Virus record (IMG/VR): IMGVR_UViG_3300050821_014180
Span: 1-30,780 of that record
Origin: a virus
DNA: 30,780 nt
Reading direction: 5' to 3' (one strand)
Shown here: positions 4,218 through 30,780 of the stretch, in pieces
Layout of the letters: every line of letters starts with the position of its first letter
How positions within the stretch are numbered: the first letter of the stretch is position 1
Translations under genes and position numbers: made by a program
Notes under the pieces: model-generated
Database searches by the model: none
Told to the model about the DNA's origin: nothing
Seen by the model: the letters and a program-made list of their open reading frames with translations, nothing else

Positions 4218-7200
4218 CGACCTACAGGGGTGGCTCCGAGCCATCCGCAGCGCGGGCCATGGTGGAGGAGGAGCCACCGTCGCAGAGCCTGAAGACGAAG
4301 AACTGTCGCCTTCCGACGAGCGCCAACCATCGCTGAGCGAAATGCTCAGCGCCATCCGCAATGCAAAGTCGGCCGAATCAGAAGCAGAGAAAGCAGCGCG
4401 CGCTCACGTCACGCCCAGCACCACGGCTGGTCCAACATTAGACCAAGCGATATCGCCCGAAACTCCCGCGCGGGTTACCCGCATGGGCGAAGGAGTCGGT
4501 CGGTCGATGATTCCCTTTGAGCCGCCCACCACCGCACCGCCTCCTCCGCATTTGGTGCGCGGACCTTTCGGACAGCCCATACCCCCCGAGCCCGTTGAAG
4601 AAGAATTAGAGGGTGAAGCTTATTCGGAACGCGAGGCGGCTGAGCAGTCGGAAGAAGAAAAGCAGCGCCTGGAAAGGCTCGATCCGCTCTCGCGCATTGT
4701 GGTCGCGTCTACAACGACGCCGAACACGATGCTGGGCCCGCAGATCCCGACCGGACCGCCGACATTCGGCCAGCAAGTTGAGGCCGGCGTGCTGCACGGT
4801 GCCACAGGAATGCGTCCCGACCTTGCCGCAAGGGTCGCGCGGGGCACCGGTGAACGGCCGCTGGCTCTCGAAGCGGCCATCTCGCCATCTGCAACGGGTA
4901 TCGCGCCTGCAATCGAACGCGGCGTACTCAGCGGCGCATCGGGGCTTTTGAGTCCCGATAACCTGGCGCTACTCGCCTCGATGGAAGGCATGGGCGGAGT
5001 CCTTGGGAACCTGGCGCGACAATCGAGCGGATTGTACGAAGCCGCAGAGACGGCGGCGGAAGCGGAAGATTGGGCGAGGTCGGGGGAAGCGCTGGCCAAG
5101 GCCGAAAAGATTGCAGCCCGGGCCAAGCCGCTCGCGGCGATTCATGCAGCCATCAATCCCTACTTCACGTACCAGATGGCGCAGGGGCTTTATGGGGACG
5201 TGAAGGGACTGAAGAAAGCGATCGATCAAGGCGACTGGCAGACCGCCGCTGAACTCCTGGGTGAGGCGATACCGAATGGAATTTTTACTGCGGAAGGCGT
5301 CCGCAATATTTACGCAGGCGTCGCGCGGGTCAGTGCCGGAATCGAGGCGCGGTCAACAGCACGCGAGGCGGCTCGTCGATCACCGGCAACGACGCCTGAA
5401 GCTGAGCCGGTTGAAGCAACGCGCCAGTTGGTCGCTGGCGAGCCAGAAGAAGCGCCTGCAGAATCCGCTGAGACTCCGACGCCCAACGTACCGGAAACGT
5501 CAAGCGCATCGCCAGAGGCGCCCGCAGCGCGAGCCACGGCCCCTGGACAACAAGTCCCGGAACGCGAAGGGACTGAACCTGAGTTCCCGCTCGACCAGTC
5601 GTTAGAGGCAATCCGCAATGCCAAGCGCCCGGGCGAAGCTGTCGAAGAGCCGAAACTACCGGAGCGCAAAACAATTTCGCCCAATGCGCCGCCAGAAGAA
5701 AAGCTCGCCACAGATTTGGAGAATGCGGCCGCAGAAATCCGCGGCGTCCGACGAGAAGAACCATCGCAGGCAGTTGGCGAGGAAGCGGTTGGTGCCTCCA
5801 CTCAAGAAATTCCTGCCGAACTTTTGGACAAAGCGAGAGCGCTTGACGACCGTGAGCGCAATTCAACGATAGCGATTCAACGGCGCTTGCGTGTTGGGTA
5901 CGACATGGCATCGCGCATCAAAGAGCAACTGGCGAACGAGCCTCCGCAAACCGCTGAGGGTCAAGAGGTTACAGAGCCGCACTCCAATGTTGGAGTGACT
6001 GAACCGCAAGTCACTACAACTAAAGGGATTGCGGCGCCGCGGTCTAATGTTGGACTACCTGAACCGCAGCCGATCAATCCTCAAGAAGTCGCGGATCTCG
6101 AACATGAACTCGGGCGACCAGTAAGAGCGGAAGATGTAAACGCTATCCGCCGGCGCCAAGCGGCCGCTGCTAACGTCGAAGCAGGTCTCCGTGGCGAACG
6201 TAGCGACGAGGCGGCGCGGATTCGAGAGCAACACCGCGCCACCCTGCCGTCATTCGCGCCGGGGGATGAAGTTGGCGCACTCGGCGAAGACGCGCGCGCG
6301 AAAGCGGACGAAGTACGTGAAGTTAATCCTGGATTGGCGCAGGTATTCGAAAAACTGGCATCCGGCAAGTACGAGTTCAACGAGCTCAGGGATTACGTCG
6401 ACGAGAATGTCGCCGATCCGTCAACGCACGCTGAACTTTCGGAAGCGGTAGATGGGCTGGAAAGAACTTGGGCCGCCGAACCAGAAGCAGGAGAATCCGC
6501 TCACACAGCTTTAGAGAACGCCCCTCCCGGCGGGTTCACCGAAGCAGATCGTGTTCCTGAACCACCAATCGTAGAATTCCGTCGTCAGGCCAGAGATATT
6601 GCGCGAACGTTGCCTGCAGTGCCTGAGGGCTACACGCGGTTATGGCGTGGCAATCGCGCCGGAGAAGAAGGGCGCAATCCGCAGTTTACAAATGATCTGC
6701 CCGGCATAGCGCTTCCCTTCCAAAAAGCCTACGGAGGCCAGATCACCTATGTAGATGTTCTATCCGAAGACCTCGACAAATATGAGCAGAGCGTCGGTGC
6801 GGCACCGGGTGCGGAGTTTGTCTTGCCGTCTCGACTTGCTAAATCGGCAAAAACTGTTGCGATCGGACCGGTGGGTGTCGGGCTTCCCGAGGAACCTCCC
6901 AGCGCAAACATTGAAAGGCCACGGGGCCAAGCTGCTACAAGTCTGCCGTTCGAACCGCTGGGCCGAGCGGCCGCGTTTGAGTCGCGCATGCCCACGACTC
7001 CGCCCAGCAAGGAACCAGAGAGTGCTACACTCCCAGAAGGAGAGGAACCAACCTATGAGCCCGCAATTGAGTCCTTGGGCGATTCAGGCGAAAGAGCACT
7101 GGAAGAAGTACCGTCCGAAGCTACATCGCGAGCTTCAGGAGAAGGGCCTGCTCGACCAGAGGGCGGAGAAGGCGGCACAGCAGACACAGGACGAATTGGA

Positions 7201-10200
7201 CGAACTCCTGAGCGAGGGAATGAATTACGACCAAGCTTGGGAGTTGGTGAGGGAAAAGTACCTGTTTCTGCCGAGCGAGGAGGACGTGCCGAAACTGGGC
7301 GAGGACAGCGCATCTCCCCCGCTGCAACAGCCGGAAATGACTACCGCATCACGGACGCCGACCAAATCGGAGAAGGTGGCGAGCGCACAAAGTATGCCGA
7401 CAACGTCGCTGCCATCCGAACTCTCAAGCAAATCGAGCTAGACGGGCGACAGGCCACACCGGAAGAGCAATCGAAACTCGTCAAATATGTTGGCTGGGGC
7501 GGTCTCTCGCAAGTTTTCAGCGACCCTTACTCCCGGAAGTGGGGCGACGAATACCAAGAACTCAAAGACCTGCTCACTGACGAGGAATACGAAGCGGCAC
7601 GCGCTTCTACCCCCAATGCTCACTACACTTCCCTTCCAGTCGTTCGCGGAATATGGGATGCGGTTCGCCGTCTCGGTTTCTCCGAGGGGCGTCTTTTGGA
7701 GCCATCCGCAGGCGTTGGCCATTTCCTCGGGCTCATGCCGGATGATTTCCCGGCGCGTCGCACCGCGATCGAACTCGATAACCTAACCGGGCGAATCCTC
7801 AAGCAGCTTTATCAAACCGCCGACGTTCGCATCCAGGGCTTCGAGAAGTTCCGCATTCCCAACGGCTTTTTCGACCTCGCTGTTGGGAACGTTCCCTTCG
7901 GTGATTACAAAGTTCACGATCCCGACTACGCAGCGCATCGGCTGAACATCCACAATTATTTCATTCTAAAAACGCTCGACAAGTTGCGTCCCAACGGCGT
8001 CGCCGCTCTCATCACCAGTTCGTACACACTGGATTCGTCTTCGGACAAGGCGCGAAAGCTCTTTGCTGATCGCGCCGACCTCGTGGGCGCCATTCGCCTG
8101 CCCAATAATGCCTTCAAAGGAAACGCTGGAACTGAAGTCACCACGGACGTCCTGTTTTTCCGAAAGCGTGCCGAGGACGAGAAACCTAGCGGCGAGAAGT
8201 TCCTCGACGTTGGAACGATCAAGGACTCGAAGGGCAAGGAGCTGCCGCTCAACGAGTATTTCATCGCCCATCCCGAAATGATGCTCGGCAAGATGGAGCG
8301 CGCCGGCACGATGTACAGCAGTGGTGAACCGGCGCTGATTCCGCGTCCCGGCCAGGATCTGGCCGCAGAACTCGCGAAAGCAATCGCGAAACTTCCCGAG
8401 AAGATCATGGGAGCAGCGCCCACTCCGGAGGCAGCCACGATTGAGGCCGCTGCCGAAGGGATACCGGAATACGGCGACACGAAGCCCGGTGGACTGAAGA
8501 TCAAAAGCGGCAAGGTCTATCGCCGGGCTGGGGAAACGCTGCAGCTCGAAAGCGGTTTTCCGAAATCAGCCTATCCGCGCCTGAAGGACATGCTACGGCT
8601 GCGCGATGCTGAGCGCGAACTGCTAACCGCAGAATTGAACGATCGGCCAACCAGAGAATTGTCGGACCTGCGCGGACGCCTGAATCGGTTCTACGACGGC
8701 TTCGTTCAAAAGCATGGATATCTGCATAGCCGAGCGAACCTCCGCGCTATGCCGCAGGACCCTGATCTGCCATTTTTGCTGGCGCTCGAGGATTACGATC
8801 CCAAGGAAAAGAAGGCTGCCAAAGCCGACATCTTCACCAAGCGCACGGTAGCGCCACGGAAGCCCGTAGAGCACGTCGAGACGGCCAAAGAGGCCATGCT
8901 GGTCTCGCTCGCCGAGAAGGGGCGCCTCGACTTTGATCACATGGCGCAGATCACCGGGCGAACTCAGGAGGAGTTGCAAGACGATCTGCGCGCCGATGGG
9001 TTGGTCTTCCACAGCCCTGAAGGCCACTGGGAAACCTCAGACAGCTATCTCTCTGGAAACGTGCGGAAGAAGTTGGCTGAAGCGCAATCAGCGGTCGAGG
9101 CCGATCCCGCGTTCAGGGAGAATGTCGAGGCGCTTGAAAGAGTCCAACCCAAAGATTTGACACCAGGAGAAATTGGAGCACGACTCGGTGCCCCATGGGT
9201 TCCCGCGGACGAAGTTGAGGGATTCGTGCGGCACATTCTCGGAGATCCGCACGCCGACGTAACGGTCAGACACGTTGAATCTGAAGGCTTGTGGACGGTC
9301 TCAGCATTTGCTCCCGTCGGGCGCTACGCCGGCGCGCAGCAACGGTGGGGGACCGCGCGGGTGAATCCGGTCGACCTCATTGACCTGGCGCTCAACCAGA
9401 GGGCCCCGGTTATCTACGACAAAGGGCCTGACGACACCCGCGTCATCAACGAATCCGAAACGCTGGCCGCAAAGGAAAAAGCTGAGGAGCTGCACAAAGA
9501 GTTCAAGAATTACCTGCTGCTCGAGCCTGAACGCGGTGCGAGGCTCTCGCGTCTCTACAACGAGCGGATGAACAATTGGCGCAATCGGGAATACGACGGT
9601 TCCCACCTTACCCTGCCAGGCATGTCAGCAGAGATAAAACTGACGCCAATCCAGAAAGGCGACATCTGGCGCGCCATCAGCGGCGGCAACTTGGGCCTTT
9701 ATGAGCCAGTCGGCGCCGGCAAGACGTTCATCATGGCGGCAACAGCGATGGAATGGCGGCGCTTGGGACTCGCCCGCAAGCCGATGATCGTTGTGCCCAA
9801 CCATATGGTCGAGCAGTGGGGTTACGACTTCCGCAGGCTCTATCCCGGTTCGAATGCGCTGATCGCCACTAAGGAAGACTTCTCGGCCGAGAATCGAAAA
9901 GAGTTTTCCTCGCGCATCGCTACTGGCGACTGGGACGCCGTTGTGATGGGTCACAACTCCTTCGGAAAGATCGGCGTGAGCGACGAAACGTTCGATGCCT
10001 TCATGAACGAGCAGGTCGACGCGTTGCACGCCTATCTGGACGAACTACGACAAGCCGAAGGGAAGAAAGGCCAGACCGTCAAAGAGATCGAGAAGTCTCT
10101 GAAACGTCTCGAGGAGCGCATCGCTCGCCGCCACGCTGAGGACCAAAAAGACCGGACGATCACCCTGGAGGATCTTGGTATCGACGGCCTGCTCGTAGAC

Positions 10201-13200
10201 GAAGCGCACGCGTTCAAGAGCCTCTTCTTCCCTACCAAGATGGGCCGCGTGCCGGGAGTGCCGCGGAGCGATTCCAACCGAGCGCTGGACATGCAGCTCA
10301 AGTCCCAGTACATCTCGCGACTGAATAACGGCAAGGGCTTGGTCTTCGCCACGGGCACGCCCATCAGCAACACCATGGCCGAAATGTGGAACATGATGCG
10401 GTACCTCGACGATGGCCGCCTGAGAGAGTTAGGGCTCCAGCACTTCGACGCGTGGGCGGCGCAGTTCGGGGAAATCGTTCAGAACCTCGAAGTTCGTCCA
10501 GAAGACCCAACGAAGATGCGCGTGCACGCGCGCTTCGCCAAGTTCTCCAACCTTCCGGAGCTCATCACGCTGTTCCGTAACACCGGCGCGATGCACTCCC
10601 AGGAAGAACTGAAGCTTCCCAAACCAAAAATGAGCGGCGGGAAGCCCAAGGTCAATGAGATCGAACCCAGCGAGGCTCAGGAGAACTTCATCCAGGAACT
10701 CGGAAAGCGCGCGGAAGCCATTCGCAAACGCGAGGTGTCGCCCGACGAAGACAACATGCTGAAGGTGACCACCGACGGGCGCAAGGCCGCCCTGGACATG
10801 CGCATGGTGGATTCCGGCGCGGCTGACGATCCAGATAGCAAGCTCAACCAGGTTGTTCGAAACGTCGCGCGCATCTACCACGAGCAGAATGAGAAGAAGG
10901 GCACGCAACTTTTGATGCTCGACATGGGCGTTCCCACGAAGACGCCCGGCACGTTCAATGCATATCAGGACATCAAGAACAAACTCGTGGGGCACGGCAT
11001 TCCCGCGGACGAAATCCAGTTCATCCATAGCTTCGAGAAGGACGCTGCGAAACAAGGCCTCTTTGACGACATGAACGATGGGAACGTCCGAATCCTGCTC
11101 GGTTCGACTGAGAAGGTTGGCGTCGGGACCAACATTCAGAAGCGCCTGTTTGCTTTGCATCACGTCGACGCGCCGTGGCGGCCGTCCGATATCGAGCAAC
11201 GTGAGGGACGCATTCTTCGCCAGGGCAATACCAATCCCGAGGTGGAAATCCATCGCTACGTGACCAAGCGCACGTTCGACGCCTACATGTGGCAACTCCT
11301 CCAGAACAAGAACAATTTCATCACCCAGGCCATGCATAACCAGACCGATGCCCGGGAAATTGAGGATGTGGATGGACGCTCACTGAGCTACGCCGAAGCA
11401 AAAGCCTTGGCCACTGGAAACCCGTTGGTGATGGAGAAGATTAGAACTGACCTGGACGTCGCCAAACTTCAGAAACTTGCACACGCCCACGACGTTCAGC
11501 AGTTCAATAATCGCCGCGAGATCGGAGGCTTGCCGACGCGCATTCAGGGACAGAAGGATGCGATTTCGCTTTATAAGCGTGACCAAAAGAGCGCCGCGGA
11601 TCTGCCCGAGCAGTTTGCGATCACGCTGGACGGCAAAGGTTACAGCGACCGCAAAGAAGCCGGCGCGACGCTGAACGAACTCCTGAAGCAGAACGGTGGG
11701 CAAGACACGCCGGTTAGGATCGGTAAATTTGGACCGTTCACGGTTTTCGCAGGGTCCTCCGGCGGGCGGTTGGCGGGAGCGCGTAGCTATGATTTCTCGC
11801 CCAACTACGAGAATCCGTTGGGCACGGTCCAGAGTTTGGAATCCGGGATACGCCGGATTCCTGACTACATCGAAGCGCGCCAACTGAGCCTTGAGAACCT
11901 GGAAAAAGAATTGGCCGAGCGTAAGCAGGAAGCCGATAAGCCCTTCGCTCGCCAGAAAGAACTAAACACGCTGCTCGCAAGGCAACGCGAGATCGACGAT
12001 CAGCTCAAGGTCAAGGATGTGGGCGAAGCGAACGAACCATCTGGTCTTAAAGACGAGGAAGGTGGAGTGCCGCTGAGTTTCTTGGGATTGCAGGGGCTTT
12101 ACGATCAACTCGCACGAGCAATCCGTACCGTGCTGGGCAAAGAGGAAGCACCATCGGAACCTGAGCCTGCGCCAGAGGAAATCTCCGAAACCGGGATACC
12201 GTTTGAAGCACCGTCCCACTCCAATGTTGGAGTTGAGCGCACCACACTCAACCGCGGAGCACGCCCGGGCGAGCGTGCCATCAACATCCGTCTCGATAAG
12301 CTGAATGCGCCCGACGAAGTTCTCGACGAGATCCGCCAAATCGCCAAAGACCGCGCTGCTGAGATTAACGAACAACGCCGCGGCAAGATTTCCAATGCAC
12401 AGCTTCGGGAGATGGCTGCAGAGGTTGGTCTCGACGTCGACAAGATTTCCAAACTCCCTAAGGGGCGTGCGCTGAATCCTGAGGAACTCCTGGCGGCACG
12501 CATGGCCCTGCTATCGCTCGGGGATGAAGTCCGCAAAGCCGCCGCCGCCGCGAGGGAGAGCGATAGCTCTGAGAATCTCTTGCGCCTATGGGAAGCCCAA
12601 CACAAGTTGGCAGCCGTCCAGAAATCCGTGAGTGGGGCAGTAGCGGAAGCCGGCCGGGCCCTTCAGCAACAGAAAATCATCGCTGGGGCTCTGCGCAGTA
12701 GAGATCGATCAAATATCGAACGCGTCCTTGAGCAGCTCGGGGGGCGTGAACTCACGGAAGAGGAGTTGCGGTTGCTTTCGGAAATTCCGGAGGACGACCG
12801 CGCCGGCTACTACAAGTTCCTGCGCAACGCCACGCGATTCGATTCTTACGACAAACTGCGCGCCTATTGGATGGCGAACATCCTCTCCACGCCCCACGCG
12901 TTCGAACGTAAAGCGCTGGGCGATTTGGTGAGCATGGGGATGCAGACCGCCGCACGGTTTGCCCGCGCCGGCGTCGACATCCCTGTCAGCAAACTCCAAG
13001 GGCGCACGCGAGAGTTCTATTTCCGTGACGCAATGGCTGAGACAGCGGCGATGATCCGCGCTCTTCCGGAAGGAGCTCGAAATGCCGCTTACGCAATCGC
13101 CAATGGCTTCTCACCGGAACAGGCAGAAGTGTTGGAAGCTCCGAGACGTTACGAACTGCCGGGTGGGACAAAGAATCCGCTGAACTACCCGGGCAGGATG

Positions 13201-14607
13201 CTCTCGGCAGCCACGACGATGATGAAGACCATGATTTTGCGGGGCTCCATCAAAGGGCAAGCCGTGCGTCAGGCAATAAAAGAGGGCGCCAAGGGGGCAG
13301 CGCTGGCTCAGCGAGCGGCGCAACTAATCGACGATCCGAGCGAAGCAATAATGGCCCAAGCCATGAAAGATGCGGCCATTCAGACTTTCACAGAAAGGCC
13401 GGATGCTCTCGCCAGAATGGCCATTCGACTCCGCGAACTCGCCGTGCCTAAGGATTTTCCTGTGGTAGGCGGAGTGCAACCGTTCGCGTTTGTTATTCCG
13501 TTCATTCAGGTGCCGTGGAACATCGCTAAGACTTCGGTACGGTTCTCGCCATTAGGAGCTGTACGTGCGGCTCGAAGTTCGGCCCGTGGGAAGCCCGAAT
13601 CCTCGAACATCCTCGGACAGGCACTCGTCGGTTCGCTGATCATGGCTGCGCTGGCCGCAGCCGCAGCTGAGGGAAAACTAACCGGAGCGGCACCGAAGAA
13701 TGCCAACGACCGAGACGCGTGGTACTCAGCTGGCAACGAACCGTATAGCATCAAGATCGGTAATCACTGGGTGAACTACCTGCGCGGCACAGGCGCGCTG
13801 GCACTACTCACGGCAGCCGTGGCTGGATTCCATGATTCATTCCGTGAGGACAACAAAGCGCCCACCTCGGAGAAAATTTCACAAGTTGCAGCGCTGCTCG
13901 GCAAAGCCTTCGTCGAACAGTCCTTTTTTCAAGGTATGTCGAACATGCTGAACGCACTCGAGGAGCCGGAGCGCTATGGCGAGAGATTCAGTACCGATAT
14001 CGCCGAGGGCTTCGTGCCGTTCTCAGGTGCTTTGCGCACGGCAGAGCAGGCGCTCGATCCGAAGATCCGCAATCCCCAGGGCATGTACGAGCACATCGCG
14101 TCTGGCATTCCCATCTTGAGCAAAACCGTCCCACCGCGCCTCGATGCCCTAGGCCGTGAGGTAAAGAGCGGTAGTTCTGGACTGGCGGCGCTGGCACCCA
14201 TGCCGATCAGTAAAGCCGCTCCAGAATCGAGCGTCGACACAGAGCTCGCGAGATTGCATGGCGTCGGATTGCGAAACATTGGATTCGCGGCCCGGGCTCT
14301 CACAGTCGGAAACCAGAAGATCGAACTCTCGCGCCCAGAACAAGCCGAGTATCAGCGCATGCGCGGTTCGCTGCTTCGCATGATCCTCGAACGGATGTTT
14401 GCCAGTCATGGTTACCAGGATCTGCAGGACGATCAGAAGGTGGAGGAGGTCCAGGAGGCCACGCGGCAAGCGGAACAATTCGCCCGCGAGCAGATGGTTG
14501 CGAGGGTGGTGAAGCACCGAAATGAAGAGAAGGCTGCGAAATCGACCGGCATCCCTTACGAGCCGCCGAGCCAGTTGAGCATAACCAGCCCGACAGGGTT
14601 GCAGTAG
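4204..14607 (+). CDS. Giant polyvalent protein: FtsK-gamma-like, ART-like, N6-methyltransferase, helicase, C-terminal phage domain
   Basis: 3467 residues. Residues 1-530 are mostly disordered with three AIRNAK/AIRSAG repeats. Residues 539-575 (TIAIQRRLRVGYDMASRI) match the FtsK gamma winged helix. Residues 795-890 (LWRGNRAGEEG, ITYVDVLSEDLDKY) look like an ADP-ribosyltransferase fold. Residues 1080-1300 are an N6-adenine methyltransferase: SAM motif LEPSAGVGHF at 1165-1174 and catalytic NVPF at 1229-1232. Residues 1800-2360 form an SF2/SNF2-type helicase: Walker A GAGKT 1837-1841, DEAH 1999-2002, ATGTP 2049-2053, motif VI QREGRILRQG from 2332. Residues 2700-3430 are helical, with PFIQVPWNIAKTSVRFSPLG near 3099-3118, like LPD38-type phage domains. 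The methylase-helicase pairing is that of P1 DarB-type antirestriction proteins injected with phage DNA. DNA protection after entry is therefore likely, by family. Confidence 0.88.
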   Translation: MADDNDLQGWLRAIRSAGHGGGGATVAEPEDEELSPSDERQPSLSEMLSAIRNAKSAESEAEKAARAHVTPSTTAGPTLDQAISPETPARVTRMGEGVGRSMIPFEPPTTAPPPPHLVRGPFGQPIPPEPVEEELEGEAYSEREAAEQSEEEKQRLERLDPLSRIVVASTTTPNTMLGPQIPTGPPTFGQQVEAGVLHGATGMRPDLAARVARGTGERPLALEAAISPSATGIAPAIERGVLSGASGLLSPDNLALLASMEGMGGVLGNLARQSSGLYEAAETAAEAEDWARSGEALAKAEKIAARAKPLAAIHAAINPYFTYQMAQGLYGDVKGLKKAIDQGDWQTAAELLGEAIPNGIFTAEGVRNIYAGVARVSAGIEARSTAREAARRSPATTPEAEPVEATRQLVAGEPEEAPAESAETPTPNVPETSSASPEAPAARATAPGQQVPEREGTEPEFPLDQSLEAIRNAKRPGEAVEEPKLPERKTISPNAPPEEKLATDLENAAAEIRGVRREEPSQAVGEEAVGASTQEIPAELLDKARALDDRERNSTIAIQRRLRVGYDMASRIKEQLANEPPQTAEGQEVTEPHSNVGVTEPQVTTTKGIAAPRSNVGLPEPQPINPQEVADLEHELGRPVRAEDVNAIRRRQAAAANVEAGLRGERSDEAARIREQHRATLPSFAPGDEVGALGEDARAKADEVREVNPGLAQVFEKLASGKYEFNELRDYVDENVADPSTHAELSEAVDGLERTWAAEPEAGESAHTALENAPPGGFTEADRVPEPPIVEFRRQARDIARTLPAVPEGYTRLWRGNRAGEEGRNPQFTNDLPGIALPFQKAYGGQITYVDVLSEDLDKYEQSVGAAPGAEFVLPSRLAKSAKTVAIGPVGVGLPEEPPSANIERPRGQAATSLPFEPLGRAAAFESRMPTTPPSKEPESATLPEGEEPTYEPAIESLGDSGERALEEVPSEATSRASGEGPARPEGGEGGTADTGRIGRTPERGNELRPSLGVGEGKVPVSAERGGRAETGRGQRISPAATAGNDYRITDADQIGEGGERTKYADNVAAIRTLKQIELDGRQATPEEQSKLVKYVGWGGLSQVFSDPYSRKWGDEYQELKDLLTDEEYEAARASTPNAHYTSLPVVRGIWDAVRRLGFSEGRLLEPSAGVGHFLGLMPDDFPARRTAIELDNLTGRILKQLYQTADVRIQGFEKFRIPNGFFDLAVGNVPFGDYKVHDPDYAAHRLNIHNYFILKTLDKLRPNGVAALITSSYTLDSSSDKARKLFADRADLVGAIRLPNNAFKGNAGTEVTTDVLFFRKRAEDEKPSGEKFLDVGTIKDSKGKELPLNEYFIAHPEMMLGKMERAGTMYSSGEPALIPRPGQDLAAELAKAIAKLPEKIMGAAPTPEAATIEAAAEGIPEYGDTKPGGLKIKSGKVYRRAGETLQLESGFPKSAYPRLKDMLRLRDAERELLTAELNDRPTRELSDLRGRLNRFYDGFVQKHGYLHSRANLRAMPQDPDLPFLLALEDYDPKEKKAAKADIFTKRTVAPRKPVEHVETAKEAMLVSLAEKGRLDFDHMAQITGRTQEELQDDLRADGLVFHSPEGHWETSDSYLSGNVRKKLAEAQSAVEADPAFRENVEALERVQPKDLTPGEIGARLGAPWVPADEVEGFVRHILGDPHADVTVRHVESEGLWTVSAFAPVGRYAGAQQRWGTARVNPVDLIDLALNQRAPVIYDKGPDDTRVINESETLAAKEKAEELHKEFKNYLLLEPERGARLSRLYNERMNNWRNREYDGSHLTLPGMSAEIKLTPIQKGDIWRAISGGNLGLYEPVGAGKTFIMAATAMEWRRLGLARKPMIVVPNHMVEQWGYDFRRLYPGSNALIATKEDFSAENRKEFSSRIATGDWDAVVMGHNSFGKIGVSDETFDAFMNEQVDALHAYLDELRQAEGKKGQTVKEIEKSLKRLEERIARRHAEDQKDRTITLEDLGIDGLLVDEAHAFKSLFFPTKMGRVPGVPRSDSNRALDMQLKSQYISRLNNGKGLVFATGTPISNTMAEMWNMMRYLDDGRLRELGLQHFDAWAAQFGEIVQNLEVRPEDPTKMRVHARFAKFSNLPELITLFRNTGAMHSQEELKLPKPKMSGGKPKVNEIEPSEAQENFIQELGKRAEAIRKREVSPDEDNMLKVTTDGRKAALDMRMVDSGAADDPDSKLNQVVRNVARIYHEQNEKKGTQLLMLDMGVPTKTPGTFNAYQDIKNKLVGHGIPADEIQFIHSFEKDAAKQGLFDDMNDGNVRILLGSTEKVGVGTNIQKRLFALHHVDAPWRPSDIEQREGRILRQGNTNPEVEIHRYVTKRTFDAYMWQLLQNKNNFITQAMHNQTDAREIEDVDGRSLSYAEAKALATGNPLVMEKIRTDLDVAKLQKLAHAHDVQQFNNRREIGGLPTRIQGQKDAISLYKRDQKSAADLPEQFAITLDGKGYSDRKEAGATLNELLKQNGGQDTPVRIGKFGPFTVFAGSSGGRLAGARSYDFSPNYENPLGTVQSLESGIRRIPDYIEARQLSLENLEKELAERKQEADKPFARQKELNTLLARQREIDDQLKVKDVGEANEPSGLKDEEGGVPLSFLGLQGLYDQLARAIRTVLGKEEAPSEPEPAPEEISETGIPFEAPSHSNVGVERTTLNRGARPGERAINIRLDKLNAPDEVLDEIRQIAKDRAAEINEQRRGKISNAQLREMAAEVGLDVDKISKLPKGRALNPEELLAARMALLSLGDEVRKAAAAARESDSSENLLRLWEAQHKLAAVQKSVSGAVAEAGRALQQQKIIAGALRSRDRSNIERVLEQLGGRELTEEELRLLSEIPEDDRAGYYKFLRNATRFDSYDKLRAYWMANILSTPHAFERKALGDLVSMGMQTAARFARAGVDIPVSKLQGRTREFYFRDAMAETAAMIRALPEGARNAAYAIANGFSPEQAEVLEAPRRYELPGGTKNPLNYPGRMLSAATTMMKTMILRGSIKGQAVRQAIKEGAKGAALAQRAAQLIDDPSEAIMAQAMKDAAIQTFTERPDALARMAIRLRELAVPKDFPVVGGVQPFAFVIPFIQVPWNIAKTSVRFSPLGAVRAARSSARGKPESSNILGQALVGSLIMAALAAAAAEGKLTGAAPKNANDRDAWYSAGNEPYSIKIGNHWVNYLRGTGALALLTAAVAGFHDSFREDNKAPTSEKISQVAALLGKAFVEQSFFQGMSNMLNALEEPERYGERFSTDIAEGFVPFSGALRTAEQALDPKIRNPQGMYEHIASGIPILSKTVPPRLDALGREVKSGSSGLAALAPMPISKAAPESSVDTELARLHGVGLRNIGFAARALTVGNQKIELSRPEQAEYQRMRGSLLRMILERMFASHGYQDLQDDQKVEEVQEATRQAEQFAREQMVARVVKHRNEEKAAKSTGIPYEPPSQLSITSPTGLQ
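5980..5997. repeat. Dispersed palindrome, copy 3 (full)
   Basis: CACTCCAATGTTGGAGTG: 8-bp arms with a 2-base centre, encoding HSNVGV inside the polyvalent gene, downstream of the FtsK-gamma-like module. Confidence 0.7.
6041..6056. repeat. Dispersed palindrome, copy 4 (variant)
   Basis: GGTCTAATGTTGGACT, 60 bases after the previous copy (start to start), encoding SNVGL. Its reverse complement nearly matches the copy at 23700. Confidence 0.5.
7055..7441 (+). CDS. Out-of-frame gene nested inside the polyvalent gene
   Basis: A 128-residue frame in +2 relative to the window (the polyvalent gene is in +1). It starts at an ATG preceded by AAGGAGAGG about 10 bases upstream. The first 75 residues look like a real globular helical protein: PWAIQAKEHWKKYRPKLHRE, then a helix with EKAAQQTQDELDELLSEGM, then NYDQAWELVREKYLFLPSEE. 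This pattern, with HWKKYRP and AWELVREKYLFLP, resembles short phage/plasmid helical proteins I have seen annotated as hypothetical; the function is unknown. In the polyvalent frame the same bases give a Gly/Glu/Arg-rich low-complexity linker between the ART-like and methyltransferase parts. It is therefore the small frame, not the large one, that looks ancestral here. Confidence 0.65.
   Translation: MSPQLSPWAIQAKEHWKKYRPKLHRELQEKGLLDQRAEKAAQQTQDELDELLSEGMNYDQAWELVREKYLFLPSEEDVPKLGEDSASPPLQQPEMTTASRTPTKSEKVASAQSMPTTSLPSELSSKSS
12218..12233. repeat. Dispersed palindrome, copy 5
   Basis: ACTCCAATGTTGGAGT within the polyvalent gene, in the linker after the helicase, encoding SNVGV directly after a GIPFEAP motif. 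Confidence 0.7.
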
Positions 14608-21995: not shown

Positions 21996-22391
21996 TCACT
22001 TCCCTTCATGTGCTTTCATCAACTCAGAAACGATCGCCTTCAGTTCTTGACCGACTTTCGCGTAGCAGGGCGCGCAGAATCCGATGGCACCGTGCGGGCG
22101 TTCCCTGGTCTTACACAATAGGCATCCGTGACGCTCAAAGCGCACGGCCCAAACCCTTCTCTCCGGCACGGTTTGCAGGCGACGAATCTCATAAGCTTCC
22201 TGCCGGCTACGAAAGAATGGCTCAAAGACGAATTGATCCCGGGCGGCGAGGACCTCGGCAACTTTCTTCTGGACCAAGTTGTCAATCAGCTTCATTCCTC
22301 GGTGATCGCGGAGCCTCTCTACGTCGCTCGGAGCTAAGATCTCAATCGCGGGTTGGTCTGGCGGCGCTGCTGGCGCTTCATTTCTTTTCAT
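21996..22391 (-). CDS. Zinc-finger-like protein between two recombinase genes
   Basis: 131 residues from the ATG at 22391, which overlaps the end of the tyrosine recombinase gene by 14 bases; the stop lies 4 bases before the resolvase start. The N-terminal part is proline-rich (APAAPPDQPAIEIL), followed by a helical region (MKLIDNLVQKKVAEVLAARD). A C-terminal metal-binding-like pair comes next: CLLCKTRERPHGAIGFCAPC. No family is recognised. The tight packing with both recombinases suggests an accessory DNA-binding or scaffolding role in recombination. Confidence 0.65.
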   Translation of the reverse strand: MKRNEAPAAPPDQPAIEILAPSDVERLRDHRGMKLIDNLVQKKVAEVLAARDQFVFEPFFRSRQEAYEIRRLQTVPERRVWAVRFERHGCLLCKTRERPHGAIGFCAPCYAKVGQELKAIVSELMKAHEGK

Positions 22392-23682
22392 TTGGCTGCT
22401 CCTTTGCCCATCGTGGGTGACAGGTCTCCATCGTCTTTCGCATGTGGGCAAAACTAACGTGGGTGTAAATCTGGGTCGTCGAGATCGACACATGCCCGAG
22501 CAATTCTTGAATGGTACGCAGATCGGCGCCGCCCTCTAGCAGATGTGTAGCAAAACTGTGACGCAGCATGTGCGGGTGAACATGCCGCAGCCCGGCTTTC
22601 TTGGCCAGCCGTGCAACGATTCTCCCGATCTCATCGACAGTAATCGCGCGGACCGGCAAATGTCGGCGGTAGGTAAATGCGCGAGGACCGAGAACCCCCT
22701 CTTGGTCGGCGAGAAGTTCCTTCGCCTTCTTCCGCGCCAGTTCTACAGTCGGGAATTCACTAAGAGTCCCAATGCGCTTGCCGCGGTGTTTGTGTGCTTT
22801 GCCTGATCCTTCCCACCAATAGACGTACCAAGTTTTTCCATCTTGCAGTGATACTCCACCCCACTGGCTCCGTACCTGCTGGGTCTGGATTGGTGTCGTA
22901 AAGACCGGCCCGGTACTGCGGTTCTTCAAATAGGTGCGCAAATACTTGATGGCCCGCGGTACGAGAGGCACAAGACGCTCCTTTTGTCCCTTTCCGAGAA
23001 CGCGCACGCAACGCTCACTCCAGTTAATGTTTTCGACCCGCATACCGGCCACTTCGCTCCTGCGGCATCCAGTTACGTAGAGAGTTTCTAGAAGGGCACG
23101 GTCATGCAGCGTTCGAGCCGCACCGATAAGTCGGTTCACCTGATCCTCAGTAAGAACTTCAGGCAGAGGCCGATGCAACCGCCGCATCTTCATTTGCCGG
23201 GCGGGGTTGAATGGAATTAGGCCGTGATCCACGGCTCGGTCCAGGAAAGCACGCAATGCGTACAGGCGAAGGTTTATCGTTTCGCGCGACGCGCCACGTG
23301 ACAGCAACCAGTGAAGCCATTCCCTGAGATCTGGCGCTTTAATCGTGCGCAGGTCTGGGCCTCGGAAGAAGTCGAACCAGTCGATGAGCGCGAAACGGTA
23401 GGACCTTAACGTACTCTCACTGTAGTCGCGCTGCTTCCCGTAGATAAAAAAATCCTGAATCAACTCCATGATGCTCCACCGGGACGGCTCGCTCGATGCG
23501 GCTTGTGCCGTTCGTTCGAATGTTTCGCGCTCCCAGCGCGCCATCGTCCAGCGCTTCAGCGAATCAGAAATACTCGAGGGAGTACATGGCACAAGAGCGG
23601 CAACCCTCTCGACGGCCGGTTTCTTCGTTTCATCATCGCGGTCGGGCATAAGCGTTTCCTCCAAATACTCAAAAAGTGCCAT
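22378..23682 (-). CDS. Tyrosine recombinase with an inserted AP2-like domain
   Basis: 434 residues. The N-terminal 70 residues include a helix-turn-helix-like start (VERVAALVPCTPSSISDSLK). A SAM-like core-binding domain follows (70-165), then a XerC/D-type catalytic domain: R207 in TGCRRSE, K231 in GKGQKER, H371 and R374 in HPHMLRHSF, H397 in LLGH and nucleophile Y406 in TQIYTH. Between the lysine and the HxxR motif there is an extra segment of about 75 residues (about 268-345). It contains GKTWYVYWWEGSGKAHKHRG, GTLSEFPT and ARKKAKELL, like the three-stranded arm-binding/AP2 domain that is normally at the N-terminus of integrases. An operator-like palindrome precedes the start. The function could be mobility of a sub-island. 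Confidence 0.85.
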   Translation of the reverse strand: MALFEYLEETLMPDRDDETKKPAVERVAALVPCTPSSISDSLKRWTMARWERETFERTAQAASSEPSRWSIMELIQDFFIYGKQRDYSESTLRSYRFALIDWFDFFRGPDLRTIKAPDLREWLHWLLSRGASRETINLRLYALRAFLDRAVDHGLIPFNPARQMKMRRLHRPLPEVLTEDQVNRLIGAARTLHDRALLETLYVTGCRRSEVAGMRVENINWSERCVRVLGKGQKERLVPLVPRAIKYLRTYLKNRSTGPVFTTPIQTQQVRSQWGGVSLQDGKTWYVYWWEGSGKAHKHRGKRIGTLSEFPTVELARKKAKELLADQEGVLGPRAFTYRRHLPVRAITVDEIGRIVARLAKKAGLRHVHPHMLRHSFATHLLEGGADLRTIQELLGHVSISTTQIYTHVSFAHMRKTMETCHPRWAKEQPNEKK

Positions 23683-26572: not shown

Positions 26573-26937
26573 CTGCCGACGCCAGACACAGCCAGGTCCG
26601 CGAGTCCGGTCAACGTGGGCGAATTCTCGAATTGCTCCAAGAACGCGGCACGGAAGGCGCTACAAACATCGAGCTGAACGAAATTTGCTTCCGCTATGGT
26701 GCCCGCCTCTGGGAATTGCGACGTGCCGGCCACAACATCCGCACCGAGAACTTAGGCGACGGCTTATTCCGGTTCGTGCTCATTTCCTCGGAATCTCACA
26801 ACTCCAACATTGGAGTGAGCGAGGATGTCACCTCCCGGGGCGACATCAAGCCAGCACACCTGAACGATTACGCTCGTCGCGCGCGCGAAGTTCGCGACCG
26901 GGCCATGATGCCGTTGTTTGCCGGAAGGCGGATGTGA
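26569..26937 (+). CDS. Small winged-helix-like protein
   Basis: 122 residues from a GTG in a GTGA overlap. The segment GRILELLQERGTEGATNIEL, NEICFRYGARLWELRRAGHN, IRTENLGDGLFRF reads as helix, helix-turn-helix and wing. It matches a small phage helix-turn-helix family in which the ARLWELRRAGHNI stretch is characteristic. It contains a copy of the dispersed palindrome (26801-26816, encoding SNIGV). Probable DNA-binding replication accessory or regulator. Confidence 0.65.
   Translation: MTADARHSQVRESGQRGRILELLQERGTEGATNIELNEICFRYGARLWELRRAGHNIRTENLGDGLFRFVLISSESHNSNIGVSEDVTSRGDIKPAHLNDYARRAREVRDRAMMPLFAGRRM
26801..26816. repeat. Dispersed palindrome, copy 8
   Basis: ACTCCAACATTGGAGT inside the small winged-helix gene, encoding SNIGV. 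The centre is the reverse complement of the TG centre seen in other copies. Confidence 0.7.
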
Positions 26938-27938
26938 TGCCAAGCGGCAAGCGTGATCCTGCCGCCATTCCTGAGGGCCGATTCTTCTGTAGCGTCGAAT
27001 GGCACCTTCAGCAATTGAAGTCCCGCCTCGCCTGCCCCCTTTATAGCTGGGGGCGCCGACTATCGACAACATCCGGCGTCTTTTCCGCGTCCGCAGAGCA
27101 CGTAGCCGAATACTTTGGCGTGAACCGCAAGACGGCTCTCTCTACTTTGAGAGAACTCGCGGAACTTGGTTTTTTCATAATTGATCGAATTGAACGCGGA
27201 AAGCCAAACACGTACAAGACGATCGATCACGATGAATGGGCAGAGCACAATCCCGGCCGCTGCGTTGAGAAAGCCTCGTTTCCCTGGGAGGGGCAGGGCG
27301 ACCGCCTCGGCTGCCACCTCTACCAGATCAGCGGCGGACGTGTGAAGTTTTGGCCTAGGCAGATGACGGGATTGCGCAATCTGGGGTTTTCCGACGAGCA
27401 GATCATTGAACAGTTCCGCACTTTCATGGTCGAAGCCGACTACACAGGAAGACGTTGGAAGCACGCCTATTACGATTTTCGCACCCGTTTGAAGGTCCAC
27501 TCCAACGTTGGAGTAGAGGAAGAGGGTGGATTTCCAGACATGAGGGACATCCTGCGCGCACAGAAAATGAGAAGCATCGAGTCCAGTCCAACGGACTCGG
27601 TAGGAGTCCAGTCCAGCGGACACCCACCAGTCCAGTCGAACGGACTACACCAGTCCAGCCGAACGGACCCAAGTAGTCGAAGTAGTTCTCGAAAGGAAGT
27701 AGACGAATCTGAATTAACGATACCCGCTCCGCGGCGCGTAGTTAGCTACCCTTCTTTTAAGAATAAAGAAAAAGCAGCAGCACAAAAAAAAGAAGAAAAG
27801 CCTTACCCCCAACAAACGCCCCAGGAGTGCGAGGCCAGAGTAAAACTGCTTCAGGACCAAGCGCGCCAACTTAAAGAGGCGGAGGCCGAGCAAAAGATCC
27901 CCGTGATCCGGTTTTCGGAGCTCGCTGCGGCACGATGA
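26937..27938 (+). CDS. Replication-initiator-like protein (lambda-O-like layout)
   Basis: 333 residues from the ATG at 26937, which overlaps the previous stop by one base (TGATG). The N-terminal domain contains a winged helix: SGVFSASAEHVAEYFGVNRK, TALSTLRELAELGFFIIDRI, then the wing ERGKPNTYKTI (about residues 45-100). A middle domain follows (KFWPRQMTGLRNLGFSDEQI, FRTFMVEADYTGRRWKHAYYD). Then come a low-complexity linker (about 200-275) encoded by the iterons, a Lys/Glu/Ala-rich helix and a short C-terminus. DNA-binding domain, iteron-bearing middle and partner-binding tail are the plan of lambda O, though no sequence kinship to O is claimed. It sits in a chain of overlapping small early genes. 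Confidence 0.6.
   Translation: MPSGKRDPAAIPEGRFFCSVEWHLQQLKSRLACPLYSWGRRLSTTSGVFSASAEHVAEYFGVNRKTALSTLRELAELGFFIIDRIERGKPNTYKTIDHDEWAEHNPGRCVEKASFPWEGQGDRLGCHLYQISGGRVKFWPRQMTGLRNLGFSDEQIIEQFRTFMVEADYTGRRWKHAYYDFRTRLKVHSNVGVEEEGGFPDMRDILRAQKMRSIESSPTDSVGVQSSGHPPVQSNGLHQSSRTDPSSRSSSRKEVDESELTIPAPRRVVSYPSFKNKEKAAAQKKEEKPYPQQTPQECEARVKLLQDQARQLKEAEAEQKIPVIRFSELAAAR
27499..27514. repeat. Dispersed palindrome, copy 9
   Basis: ACTCCAACGTTGGAGT, a perfect 16-bp palindrome, inside the initiator-like gene about 65 bases before the iterons; it encodes SNVGV. Confidence 0.7.
27580..27670. repeat. Four 19-bp iterons (candidate replication origin)
   Basis: Copies start at 27580, 27605, 27629 and 27652. 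The first is AGTCCAGTCCAACGGACTC; the others differ at a few positions. Spacers are 6, 5 and 4 bases. Each has inverted ends (AGTCC/GGACT in the best copies). They lie inside the initiator-like gene. An A/T- and purine-rich run follows, clearest at 27755-27800, which could be the unwinding region. Confidence 0.65.
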
Positions 27939-28159
27939 GTGCGAAACGCAAATCCGGACCGCGTAAGTGGGGGCGGCTTTTGGTGACCGCCGAAACATAC
28001 GAATTCTTGTCGAACCTCGGTCGCAAAGGGGCCTCAGGCCGCGAGACTCCAGAGCGTCGTTCTCGAGCAGACGCCAAACACTCCAATGTTGGAGTGAAAA
28101 CCTTGGCTCGCAAGCGGTGTTCGGAAAACCCCTCTTCTGGCGTGGCTGTAAATGGCTGA
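27935..28159 (+). CDS. Uncharacterised 74-residue basic protein
   Basis: It starts in an ATGA overlap with the initiator-like gene. The N-terminus is basic (SAKRKSGPRKWGRLLVTAET), then short helices and basic stretches (RRSRADAKHSNVGVKTLARK). It contains a full copy of the dispersed palindrome. No family is recognised. Its stop overlaps the next small gene. The high charge suggests nucleic-acid binding. Confidence 0.5.
   Translation: MSAKRKSGPRKWGRLLVTAETYEFLSNLGRKGASGRETPERRSRADAKHSNVGVKTLARKRCSENPSSGVAVNG
28079..28096. repeat. Dispersed palindrome, copy 10 (full)
   Basis: CACTCCAATGTTGGAGTG, identical to the 5980 copy, encoding HSNVGV in the basic protein gene. Confidence 0.7.
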
Positions 28160-28226
28160 AAACGTGAGGGCAGAAAAGGCGCCGTTGGTGTTCGGGAATG
28201 TACTGATTCCGGAACGATTGGAGTAA
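28152..28226 (+). CDS. 24-residue peptide in the overlapping early operon
   Basis: ATG at 28152 overlaps the stop of the preceding gene, and its TAA overlaps the ATG of the next (TAATG at 28224-28228). The peptide is MAENVRAEKAPLVFGNVLIP followed by ERLE. It is very short, but the end-to-end overlaps with both neighbours are those of a translated gene. It may also serve only to carry ribosomes onward. Confidence 0.4.
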   Translation: MAENVRAEKAPLVFGNVLIPERLE

Positions 28227-28432
28227 TGGCGAAGACTTCAAAACTCGCGACCATGCCGGGTCCGGCGATCGAGCCGGAGTTGAAGGAATTTATCGACAAG
28301 TGTCTCGTCCCGATTTTGGTCCGGGAAGCGCTTACAGAACTTCAGCAAGAGAATCACGTTGCACCAGATGTGAAGCCCGTAGCACAATCCTGCCGGCAGA
28401 TCCTTCCGGCCACAGCCGAGGTAGCCGAATGA
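28226..28432 (+). CDS. Small protein directly before the serine recombinase
   Basis: 68 residues with overlapping junctions on both sides (TAATG at the start, ATGA at the end). It contains a helical segment (EPELKEFIDKCLVPILVREA, LTELQQENH) and a short variable C-terminus. No family is recognised. Small proteins co-translated with large serine recombinases can be directionality factors, so this is a candidate, by position only. Confidence 0.6.
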   Translation: MAKTSKLATMPGPAIEPELKEFIDKCLVPILVREALTELQQENHVAPDVKPVAQSCRQILPATAEVAE

Positions 28433-30177
28433 GCCAACTCCGCTGCGCCGCTTACAGCCGCGTCAGCAGTGATAGGCAGAACCCACTCTCAATTGATGAT
28501 CAGATTCGAAAATGCAAAGAGTTTGCCGGACACGAGAGATGGCGTGTACTCGAGGAGCACATCTACTCCGATGAAGCAATCTCTGGGACGACCGATGACC
28601 GCCCGGGCCTTCAGCGACTTCTTGCTGCGCTGAAGCAGCGACCCTGCCCCTTTGATGTTCTGCTCGTAGATGACACAAGCCGTCTTTCCCGAAATGCCAA
28701 GGACACGCTCACTATCTACGAGAAGTTGACCTTTGCCGGCGTGCGCCTAGTCGCGATCAGCCAGGGAATCGACTCCCAGAATGAGCAAGCCGGTGTGTTG
28801 ATGCAGGTTCATGGCATCGTCGATAGCGTTTACGTGAAAGAGCTGGCCACGAAAACGCGCCGCGGCATGGAGGGCGCGTTCTTGCGGGGCAATCACACAG
28901 GAGGACGTTGCTTCGGATATCGGAATGTTCCGATCGAGGATTCGACGCGCACCGATGAGCATGGGCGCCCAGTGATTCTCGGTGTACGGCTCGAAGTGAA
29001 CGAAGCCCAGGCCGCTGTAGTTCGCCGGATATTTGAACTCTATGCCGGCGGATCTAGCCTGAAGCGGATCACGAAGCTGCTCAACTCTGAAGGCGTGGCC
29101 TCACCACAGCCGCAAGCTGGAAGAATTTCCCGCTCCTGGTGCCCTTCGTCGTTGCGGGTGATCCTCCACAATGACCGATACCGTGGGCTAGTAATTTGGA
29201 ATAAAACCAAAAAGGTTCGGGATACTGAGAGCGGCCGAAAGCTTGCTCGGGCACGCGCGCAGAAGGAATGGGTAATGCAAGACGTTCCCGAGCAACGCAT
29301 CATCGCGGACGAGCTCTGGAATGCCGTGCAGGTGCGCCAGGAGCTTGTGAAGCGCGTCTATGAAGCGGCCGGCAAGCGTGCGGGGTTGCTCCGATCCTCG
29401 GCGATGAACGTGCCGTATCTGTTTTCGGGACTCCTCAGATGCAAGGTCTGCGGTGCCAACCTGCAGATCGTTTCGGGTCGTGGTCGGAACCATCAGTCGC
29501 AAACCTACGGTTGCCCCATGAACTTTCACCGCGGCGATTCCGTGTGTTCAAATCGCGTGAGGGTGCGCCGTGACGTTCTCGAGCGCGAACTTCTCCAGGG
29601 TCTTCAGTCCAAAGTTCTTCGCGAGGAGGTCATCGACTACGTATTGGACCAGTTCGAAAAGCAGCTCGTCAGGGAAATCGACGGCATCAGCGGAGAAATG
29701 GACCGCATGAAAAAGCGGAAAGTAGAGTTGCAATCGGAGATCAGGAGGCTCACCGCCGGGCTCGCAACCGGATTCCATTCGCCGGCGGTTATGGCCGAAA
29801 TCACGAAACGCGAGCAAGAGATTTCGGATATCTCCGACCGCCTGCTCTCTTCGAAACCCGAATCCGTACGGTCGAGGATCGCTGCGCTGAAACAGAACGT
29901 CGCGAAACGAACGCATGACCTGCGCCAGTGCTTGAACAATGACCCTATAACGGCGCGTGCCTACCTTACCAAGCACGTCGAGAAGATCGAGATGGACCCG
30001 GAGGGCGGAATCTACGTAGCCTCCGGAAGTTGGAATTTGCTGGGCAGCGATACGCTGGGTGCAGAACGGACGTTGGGAATGTGCCGGGGGGCAGAGTTGA
30101 ACTGCCTACGCCGGCCTTTTCAGGGCCGCGCTCTACCGGTGAGCTACCCCGGCACCGGAGGAATCCAAAAATTGTAG
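28429..30177 (+). CDS. Large serine recombinase (element integrase)
   Basis: 582 residues from the ATG at 28429 (ATGA overlap with the small upstream gene). The resolvase domain has YSRVSSDRQ with nucleophile Ser13, SDEAISGTTDDRPGLQRLL and LVDDTSRLSRN. The recombinase domain spans about 180-300. The zinc ribbon starts with CKVC at 338-341 and pairs with CPMNFHRGDSVC. A coiled coil follows (VLDQFEKQLVREIDGISGEM, DRMKKRKVELQSEI), the usual integration-control region. The last 30 residues (from MCRGAELN) are read from the tRNA-Phe gene, so they belong to the host side of the junction; the excised form would end differently (MCRGTELHPT onward). It probably catalyses insertion at tRNA-Phe. Confidence 0.9.
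   Translation: MSQLRCAAYSRVSSDRQNPLSIDDQIRKCKEFAGHERWRVLEEHIYSDEAISGTTDDRPGLQRLLAALKQRPCPFDVLLVDDTSRLSRNAKDTLTIYEKLTFAGVRLVAISQGIDSQNEQAGVLMQVHGIVDSVYVKELATKTRRGMEGAFLRGNHTGGRCFGYRNVPIEDSTRTDEHGRPVILGVRLEVNEAQAAVVRRIFELYAGGSSLKRITKLLNSEGVASPQPQAGRISRSWCPSSLRVILHNDRYRGLVIWNKTKKVRDTESGRKLARARAQKEWVMQDVPEQRIIADELWNAVQVRQELVKRVYEAAGKRAGLLRSSAMNVPYLFSGLLRCKVCGANLQIVSGRGRNHQSQTYGCPMNFHRGDSVCSNRVRVRRDVLERELLQGLQSKVLREEVIDYVLDQFEKQLVREIDGISGEMDRMKKRKVELQSEIRRLTAGLATGFHSPAVMAEITKREQEISDISDRLLSSKPESVRSRIAALKQNVAKRTHDLRQCLNNDPITARAYLTKHVEKIEMDPEGGIYVASGSWNLLGSDTLGAERTLGMCRGAELNCLRRPFQGRALPVSYPGTGGIQKL
30081..30090. repeat. Right attachment core (attR) at tRNA 3' end
   Basis: GTGCCGGGGG, same as 561-570. 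It covers the 3' strand of the tRNA-Phe acceptor stem (30083-30089), the discriminator base and one base beyond. Confidence 0.65.
30082..30153 (-). tRNA. tRNA-Phe(GAA)
   Basis: On the minus strand a full cloverleaf of 72 bases: acceptor GCCGGGG/CCCCGGC, D-arm GCTC/GAGC, anticodon stem CGGCC/GGCCG with loop CTGAAAA (anticodon GAA), T-arm GGCAG-TTCAACT-CTGCC and discriminator A. The gene no longer encodes CCA (next bases are CAT); the displaced left copy does. The last part of the serine recombinase reading frame overlaps it on the other strand. Confidence 0.95.
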
Positions 30178-30199
30178 CGGCGCAGAGTTGCGATGTCGA
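30171..30199 (-). promoter_or_regulatory. tRNA-Phe promoter
   Basis: On the minus strand TCGACA (30194-30199), 17-bp spacer, TACAAT (30171-30176), 18 bases before the tRNA 5' end. The stop codon of the serine recombinase lies inside the -10 box. Confidence 0.65.
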
Positions 30200-30249
30200 G
30201 ACCGAATCCACTCGTCTCGCAACCGCGATGCGACTTTTTGGGTGAGGAT

Positions 30250-30780
30250 TTACTTCAGCGACGCGTCGAACTCCCGCATCCAGTCTTTCTTCTTCAGCAC
30301 TTCGCGAGGCTTGGTACCGTCGGCGGCTCCGACGATGCCATCTTTCTCCATGATGTCGATCAGCCGCGCCGCCCGGCCATAACCGATGCGCAGCCGCCGT
30401 TGCAGAGTCGAAGTCGAAGCGCGTCCCATCTCGCAGACCACGCGCACGGCCTCCTGATAAAGTTCGTCATCCACCTCATCCTCGCCTCCCTCACCGGCGG
30501 CCTCAGCGCTCGTTTCTTCCTTCGGAGCTTCCAGGAGCTTCTGGTTGTAGATGGCCTTGGCCTGCGATCGCCAGAAATCGCAGAGTGAGACGATTTCATC
30601 TTCGGTTACCAGCGGTCCGTGAATGCGGTGCAGCCGCGATGACCCTGCCGGCAGGTAGAGCATGTCGCCGCGGCCCAGCAGAGATTCTGAGCCGTTCGCG
30701 TCCAGAATCGTCCGCGAATCCACCTTGCTCGCCACGCGGAACGAGATGCGCGCCGGGAAGTTCGCTTTGATCAGCCCGGT
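30250..30780 (-). CDS. ftsK: DNA translocase FtsK, C-terminal part (host; 5' end outside window)
   Basis: Reading on the minus strand from the window edge: the end of the motor domain (ANFPARISFRVASKVDSRTI, LDANGSESLLGRGDMLYLP), then a linker with an acidic run (AAGEGGEDEVDDE). The gamma winged helix follows (TSTLQRRLRIGYGRAARLID), and the end is REVLKKKDWMREFDASLK. FtsK pumps chromosome DNA through the septum and activates XerCD at dif; gamma reads KOPS sites. The start lies beyond the window. tRNA-Phe follows on the same strand. Confidence 0.95.
   Translation of the reverse strand, partial: TGLIKANFPARISFRVASKVDSRTILDANGSESLLGRGDMLYLPAGSSRLHRIHGPLVTEDEIVSLCDFWRSQAKAIYNQKLLEAPKEETSAEAAGEGGEDEVDDELYQEAVRVVCEMGRASTSTLQRRLRIGYGRAARLIDIMEKDGIVGAADGTKPREVLKKKDWMREFDASLK

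Follow-up and report, generated by a model that had tools for sequence, protein, structure and literature searches.

A candidate replication origin of lambda-like layout in an O-like initiator gene of an acidobacterial prophage

Short repeats inside a gene for a putative phage replication initiator raise the question of whether the gene also contains the origin at which its product acts. The window analyzed here is an entire 30,780-bp viral record from IMG/VR (IMGVR_UViG_3300050821_014180, positions 1 to 30,780). An initial annotation made from the letters alone described four 19-bp units with 4- to 6-base spacers from 27580 onward, placed them in the linker of a winged-helix protein ahead of an A/T- and purine-rich stretch, and proposed that the element replicates from this site with its own initiator in the manner of lambda. 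The analysis below supports an initiator encoded by the element itself, with an origin whose layout resembles that of lambda, and revises two details of the arrangement.

Iterons and A/T-rich tract in the initiator-like gene

The four repeats are present and are 18 to 19-bp units of the word AGTCCAGYCSARCGGAC (Table 1). They are spaced 25, 24 and 23 bp from start to start, separated by 4 to 6 nt, and the copies are 76 to 100% identical over 21 nt. A de novo scan for four copies in 130 bp found this site and no other in the 30.8 kb, and a 4-copy array appeared in none of 100 dinucleotide shuffles. No fifth copy of the 17-bp consensus occurs in the window even when 3 mismatches are allowed. Every iteron contains the imperfect dyad AGTCC...GGACT, and the scores of two of the four fall above the 95% level of random 24-mers but below the 99% level.

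Table 1. Features of the initiator-like gene and its repeats (window coordinates).
Feature	Position	Strand	Basis and remarks
Initiator-like gene P0001	26937..27938	+	333 aa; PHROG 678 match; homologues L101, L102, L103
Winged-helix region, residues 31-107	27027..27257	+	PHROG 678 match; weak Pfam matches
Second conserved domain, about residues 108-190, unnamed	27258..27506	+	Homologue alignments; shared part ends here
C-terminal extension through iterons and A/T tract	27507..27935	+	Alignment: no counterpart in homologues L101 and L103
Iteron 1, AGTCCAGTCCAACGGACT, imperfect dyad	27580..27597	+	Repeat and dyad scan
Iteron 2, AGTCCAGTCCAGCGGACA	27605..27622	+	Repeat scan
Iteron 3, AGTCCAGTCGAACGGACT, imperfect dyad	27629..27646	+	Repeat and dyad scan
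Iteron 4, AGTCCAGCCGAACGGACC	27652..27669	+	Repeat scan
A/T- and purine-rich tract, candidate DNA unwinding element	27755..27799	+	Lowest-GC 45-mer of window

Repeats within a reading frame might merely reflect a repetitive, flexible linker in the protein. The encoded stretch is rich in Ser, Pro and Gln and contains pairs of similar short motifs (SSPTD and SSRTD; VQSSG and VQSNG), which speaks for that explanation. Synonymous recoding of the gene gave a null array score of 28.9 ± 1.5 with a maximum of 35, and none of the 300 recodings approached the observed score of 47. The codon phases of iterons 1 to 4 are 1, 2, 2 and 1, which sets copies 1 and 4 apart from copies 2 and 3. The repetition therefore resides in the DNA and not in the protein. 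The arrays of two homologous loci described below (L101 and L103) lie outside the gene altogether, and these three observations together refute the linker explanation, to which we give next to no weight.

The A/T- and purine-rich stretch also proved real. Of the 45 nt of the tract 36 are purines, 29 of these being A, and its GC content is 24.4%; the lowest-GC 60-mer of the window lies at 27739-27798. Its position on the 3' side of the iterons is as in lambda, but it begins 85 bp from iteron 4 and does not adjoin the array as the lambda tract does. GC skew shows no clear switch at the site.

The gene product matches PHROG 678, 'replication initiation O-like', weakly (E 5e-5), a match found in three of the four members of the initiator family formed by the window's protein and its three homologues. 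Still weaker matches connect the product to other phage initiator and DnaD-like families, and Pfam matches to HTH_36, TrmB and Crp HTH fall below the cut-off. Neither PHROGs nor Pfam has a separate family for the second conserved domain. Alignment with the homologues defines a conserved core of about residues 10-190, which finishes before the iteron array; the array starts about 640 bp into the gene and about 60-75 bp past the end of the core. The placement of the array within an O-like winged-helix gene thus stands, but a place in a linker between two conserved domains, as in lambda O, is not supported, since the core ends earlier and the nearest array-bearing homologues stop there. Past the core the frame continues for another 143 codons without a stop, as it does in only 6 of 5000 shuffles. 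The stop codon and the ATG that starts the following ORF (27935) overlap. The two ORFs downstream (27935-28159 and 28226-28432) have no PHROG match and include no recognizable P-like loader gene, and no phage helicase loader or replicative helicase was found in the element.

Arrays beside related initiators

Relatives were sought in 399 acidobacterial genomes, those of the host's class, which yielded three homologues: L101 (42% identity), L102 (35%) and L103 (29%). No relative was found in viral contigs searched with the single protein and a four-member profile, or in protein scans of a phage collection and of genome contigs. Five further hits (L096-L100) were dropped as weak and partial; on inspection three of them, L096, L098 and L099, belong to cellular loci that are unrelated.

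The L101 and L103 proteins are clear homologues of the initiator core, and both loci carry an array at the place equivalent to that in the window. The difference is in the gene, which in both ends where the conserved core ends (196 and 195 aa, respectively) and leaves the array just 3' of the stop codon. In L101, CGGACAAAAATGTCCG-type units occupy 2106-2206 and begin about 35 bp after the stop; in L103, GTGCACCCGTAGAGGTTCAC-type units with a period of 22 occupy 2068-2167 and begin about 17 bp after it. The period in the two loci is about 22-24, and their words are unrelated to the iterons of the window. L102 has no array in a contig of only 8.4 kb, where a transposase-like ORF adjoins the gene. 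The L103 element encodes an integrase, a large terminase and a neck-type protein, and the initiator family therefore sits in prophages. A topoisomerase-like protein and an antirestriction protein are encoded near L101.

A wider sample was assembled by profile search, PHROG 678 matches and the three homologues. It comprised 37 further distinct O-like ORFs, 38 with that of the window, and both the gene and the DNA 3' of it were scanned. At strict thresholds an array was detected in 17 of the 38 (13 in-gene and 4 just 3' of the stop), compared with none of 181 host-locus control ORFs in the in-gene test. Four more arrays (L101, L111, L242 and L260) fell below the strict thresholds, for a total of 21. 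The iteron words differ between loci, the spacing is mostly 21-30 bp, and the units tend to be dyads, with a mean dyad score of 3.84 versus 1.86 in random 26-mers. Eleven of the 21 have the GC minimum of their locus, taken over 40-mers, 2-105 bp beyond the array on its 3' side, the polarity seen in lambda; a simple binomial calculation gives about 1e-9, for loci that are not phylogenetically independent and with a 110-bp distance limit set after looking. Lysine-rich linkers may contribute in part to this 3' A/T minimum. The initial annotation would have been contradicted by related proteins lacking the repeats, and arrays accompany two of the three nearest homologues and roughly half of the larger set, where some of the hits without an array are short or doubtful initiators. 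In other acidobacterial genomes, near-perfect palindromic iterons (TTATCAAAATTGATAA in L114, GGCACCAGATCTGGTG in L255 and GGGGGCGAATCCGCCC in L261) are spaced by about 23-24 bp just 3' of short O-like ORFs.

These comparisons suggest that the position of the origin past the conserved core is fixed and that the frame in the window runs through it. The window ORF appears to read through an origin sited at a conserved place. One possible but doubtful scenario is that the origin stays put after the core while the stop codon moves. In the short family members the origin would lie outside the gene, and the phage in the window would have extended its frame through the iterons and the unwinding tract, so that the origin encodes a protein tail. 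Gene-internal origins such as that of lambda could then arise by loss of a stop codon and read-through into a 3'-flanking origin.

The same data bear on the reading of the array as an autoregulatory operator, at which the winged-helix protein or another phage regulator would govern its own operon while the site has no role as an origin. Repressors are common among winged-helix proteins. A PDB sequence search with the initiator returned MarR/SlyA-like winged-helix regulators as the best matches, all weak. A dimeric regulator would fit dyad repeats, and the element already has another phage-specific palindrome at scattered positions. An operator is hard to reconcile with an array about 640 bp into the gene, and in array-bearing relatives the repeats are mid-gene or just after the gene in scans of the gene and its 3' DNA. 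At least four copies at 20-26-bp spacing with a one-sided A/T minimum are, moreover, origin-like. We regard an operator as unlikely.

The integrated element

The right end of the window (30081-30780) aligns at 86% identity to QHYS01000017 (L016), from a group-2 acidobacterium. The alignment begins exactly at the 3' end of tRNA-Phe and continues into the 3' part of a gene that we take to be ftsK (94% protein identity). Position 30081 is therefore the right prophage boundary. A sequence at 561-579, GTGCCGGGGGACGGAATTG, resembles the tRNA-Phe end at 30081-30099 in the same orientation with 3 mismatches (0.02 expected by chance), and is a possible left attachment site by this similarity.

The element carries two integration systems, a tyrosine integrase (22378-23682) and a large serine recombinase (28300-30177). 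The reading frame of the latter crosses the boundary at 30081 into the tRNA-Phe gene on the opposite strand, and its C-terminal end would consequently differ between the integrated and circular forms. An ORF of 3467 aa at 4204-14607 has weak methylase (Eco57I), SNF2/ResIII helicase and helicase C-terminal matches, and seven viral contigs encode relatives with 33-42% identity over about 1400-1670 residues. A second short ORF (2291-2857) matches replication-initiation and DnaD-like families weakly (PHROG 270, E 0.004).

The scattered palindrome is the 16-bp sequence ACTCCAANNTTGGAGT, which has six copies in the element (at 5981, 12218, 14610, 26801, 27499 and 28080) and degenerate copies at 1865 and 18535. 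Three copies lie within or beside the initiator gene, and the five in-gene copies share one codon phase, xAC TCC AAN NTT GGA GTx. The palindrome does not occur in eight related host genomes (about 39 Mb), and the viral contigs scanned with it gave one site per stretch, equal to the chance expectation. It looks like a dispersed phage-specific binding site, putatively an operator or stoperator-like element.

Integration bears on one other reading of the array, namely that it serves a plasmid-like prophage in partition, as a centromere-like site, or in incompatibility. Iteron arrays occur also in plasmid partition and copy-control sites, which gives the idea some footing. No partition gene was recognized among the scanned proteins, the element is integrated at a tRNA gene, and a partition site would leave both the A/T tract and the tie to an initiator gene unexplained. 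This reading is very improbable.

A proposed theta origin and its known counterparts

The array and A/T tract are far beyond chance expectation, the repetition lies at the DNA level, the geometry matches that of the lambda origin, and arrays recur beside related initiators, all of which supports an iteron origin. We consider it highly likely that the site is the theta-replication origin, with lambda-type iterons and an unwinding element, of a temperate phage that has inserted at tRNA-Phe in a group-2 acidobacterium. Binding of the initiator, DNA melting, loading of the helicase and use of the site as an origin are steps that we infer. If it acts as lambda O and SPP1 gp38 do, the 26937-27938 product would bind the four dyad iterons through its winged-helix domain, probably as one dimer on each. 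The resulting nucleoprotein complex would strain the A/T-rich tract on its 3' side until it melts, and the replicative helicase would be loaded there, either by a separate loader or by that of the host. We likewise infer that the 26937-27938 product is the protein that uses this site.

Lambdoid origins lie in the middle of O, with an A/T-rich region flanking the iterons (PMC7466680). In the lambda genome (NC_001416) the origin spans 39034-39118 and the annotated iterons start at 39034, 39054, 39078 and 39101. The same array detector recovers them with a score of 38 against a null of 28.2 ± 1.3. Both phages have four 18-19-bp imperfect-dyad iterons within a winged-helix initiator gene, with a spacing of 25/24/23 in the window and 20/24/23 in lambda, and both have a purine-rich tract of 24% GC on the 3' side. 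In lambda gene O the lowest-GC 45-mer, with the same 24.4%, follows iteron 4 directly, whereas the tract in the window element is 85 bp off. The array in the window further differs from that of lambda O in coming after the conserved core, with the ORF reading through the origin, and the window element has no recognizable P gene beside the initiator. Beyond the O-like PHROG match there is no detectable homology between lambda O and the window's initiator; hhalign with a family profile of only four sequences gave a probability of 0.2% over 11-12 columns.

SPP1 oriL lies within gene 38, which encodes the origin-binding protein, and has direct repeats and an A/T-rich unwinding element (PMC6316719). 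The window resembles it in having repeats and a candidate for such an element inside the initiator gene. SPP1 differs in its second origin (oriR) and in encoding its own loader gp39 and helicase gp40, none of which was recognized in the window.

The locus thus has the initiator gene, DNA-level array and A/T-rich region of a gene-internal iteron origin of the lambda and SPP1 oriL kind. It also shares with the lambda O/P module an O-like winged-helix protein, about four in-gene dyad iterons and a 3' A/T-rich region. It cannot be filed as a member of that module, because lambda O homology is not detectable and no recognizable P-like loader gene lies directly downstream. By analogy the origin would work like ori-lambda, and we do not assign it to the lambda O/P family.

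What is new is a further example of the origin layout already known from lambda, and the related viruses that share this layout each have their own iteron word. A search of the literature turned up no replication origin described for acidobacterial phages, and the site is a concrete, testable candidate for one. The signature of an O-like winged-helix gene, iterons in-gene or just 3' of it and an A/T minimum 3' of the iterons points to candidate origins in many prophages of Acidobacteriota. Mini-replicon vectors could be built on such origins for these soil bacteria, which are hard to work with, and the in-gene and 3'-flanking variants together bear on how an overlap of coding sequence and origin arises.
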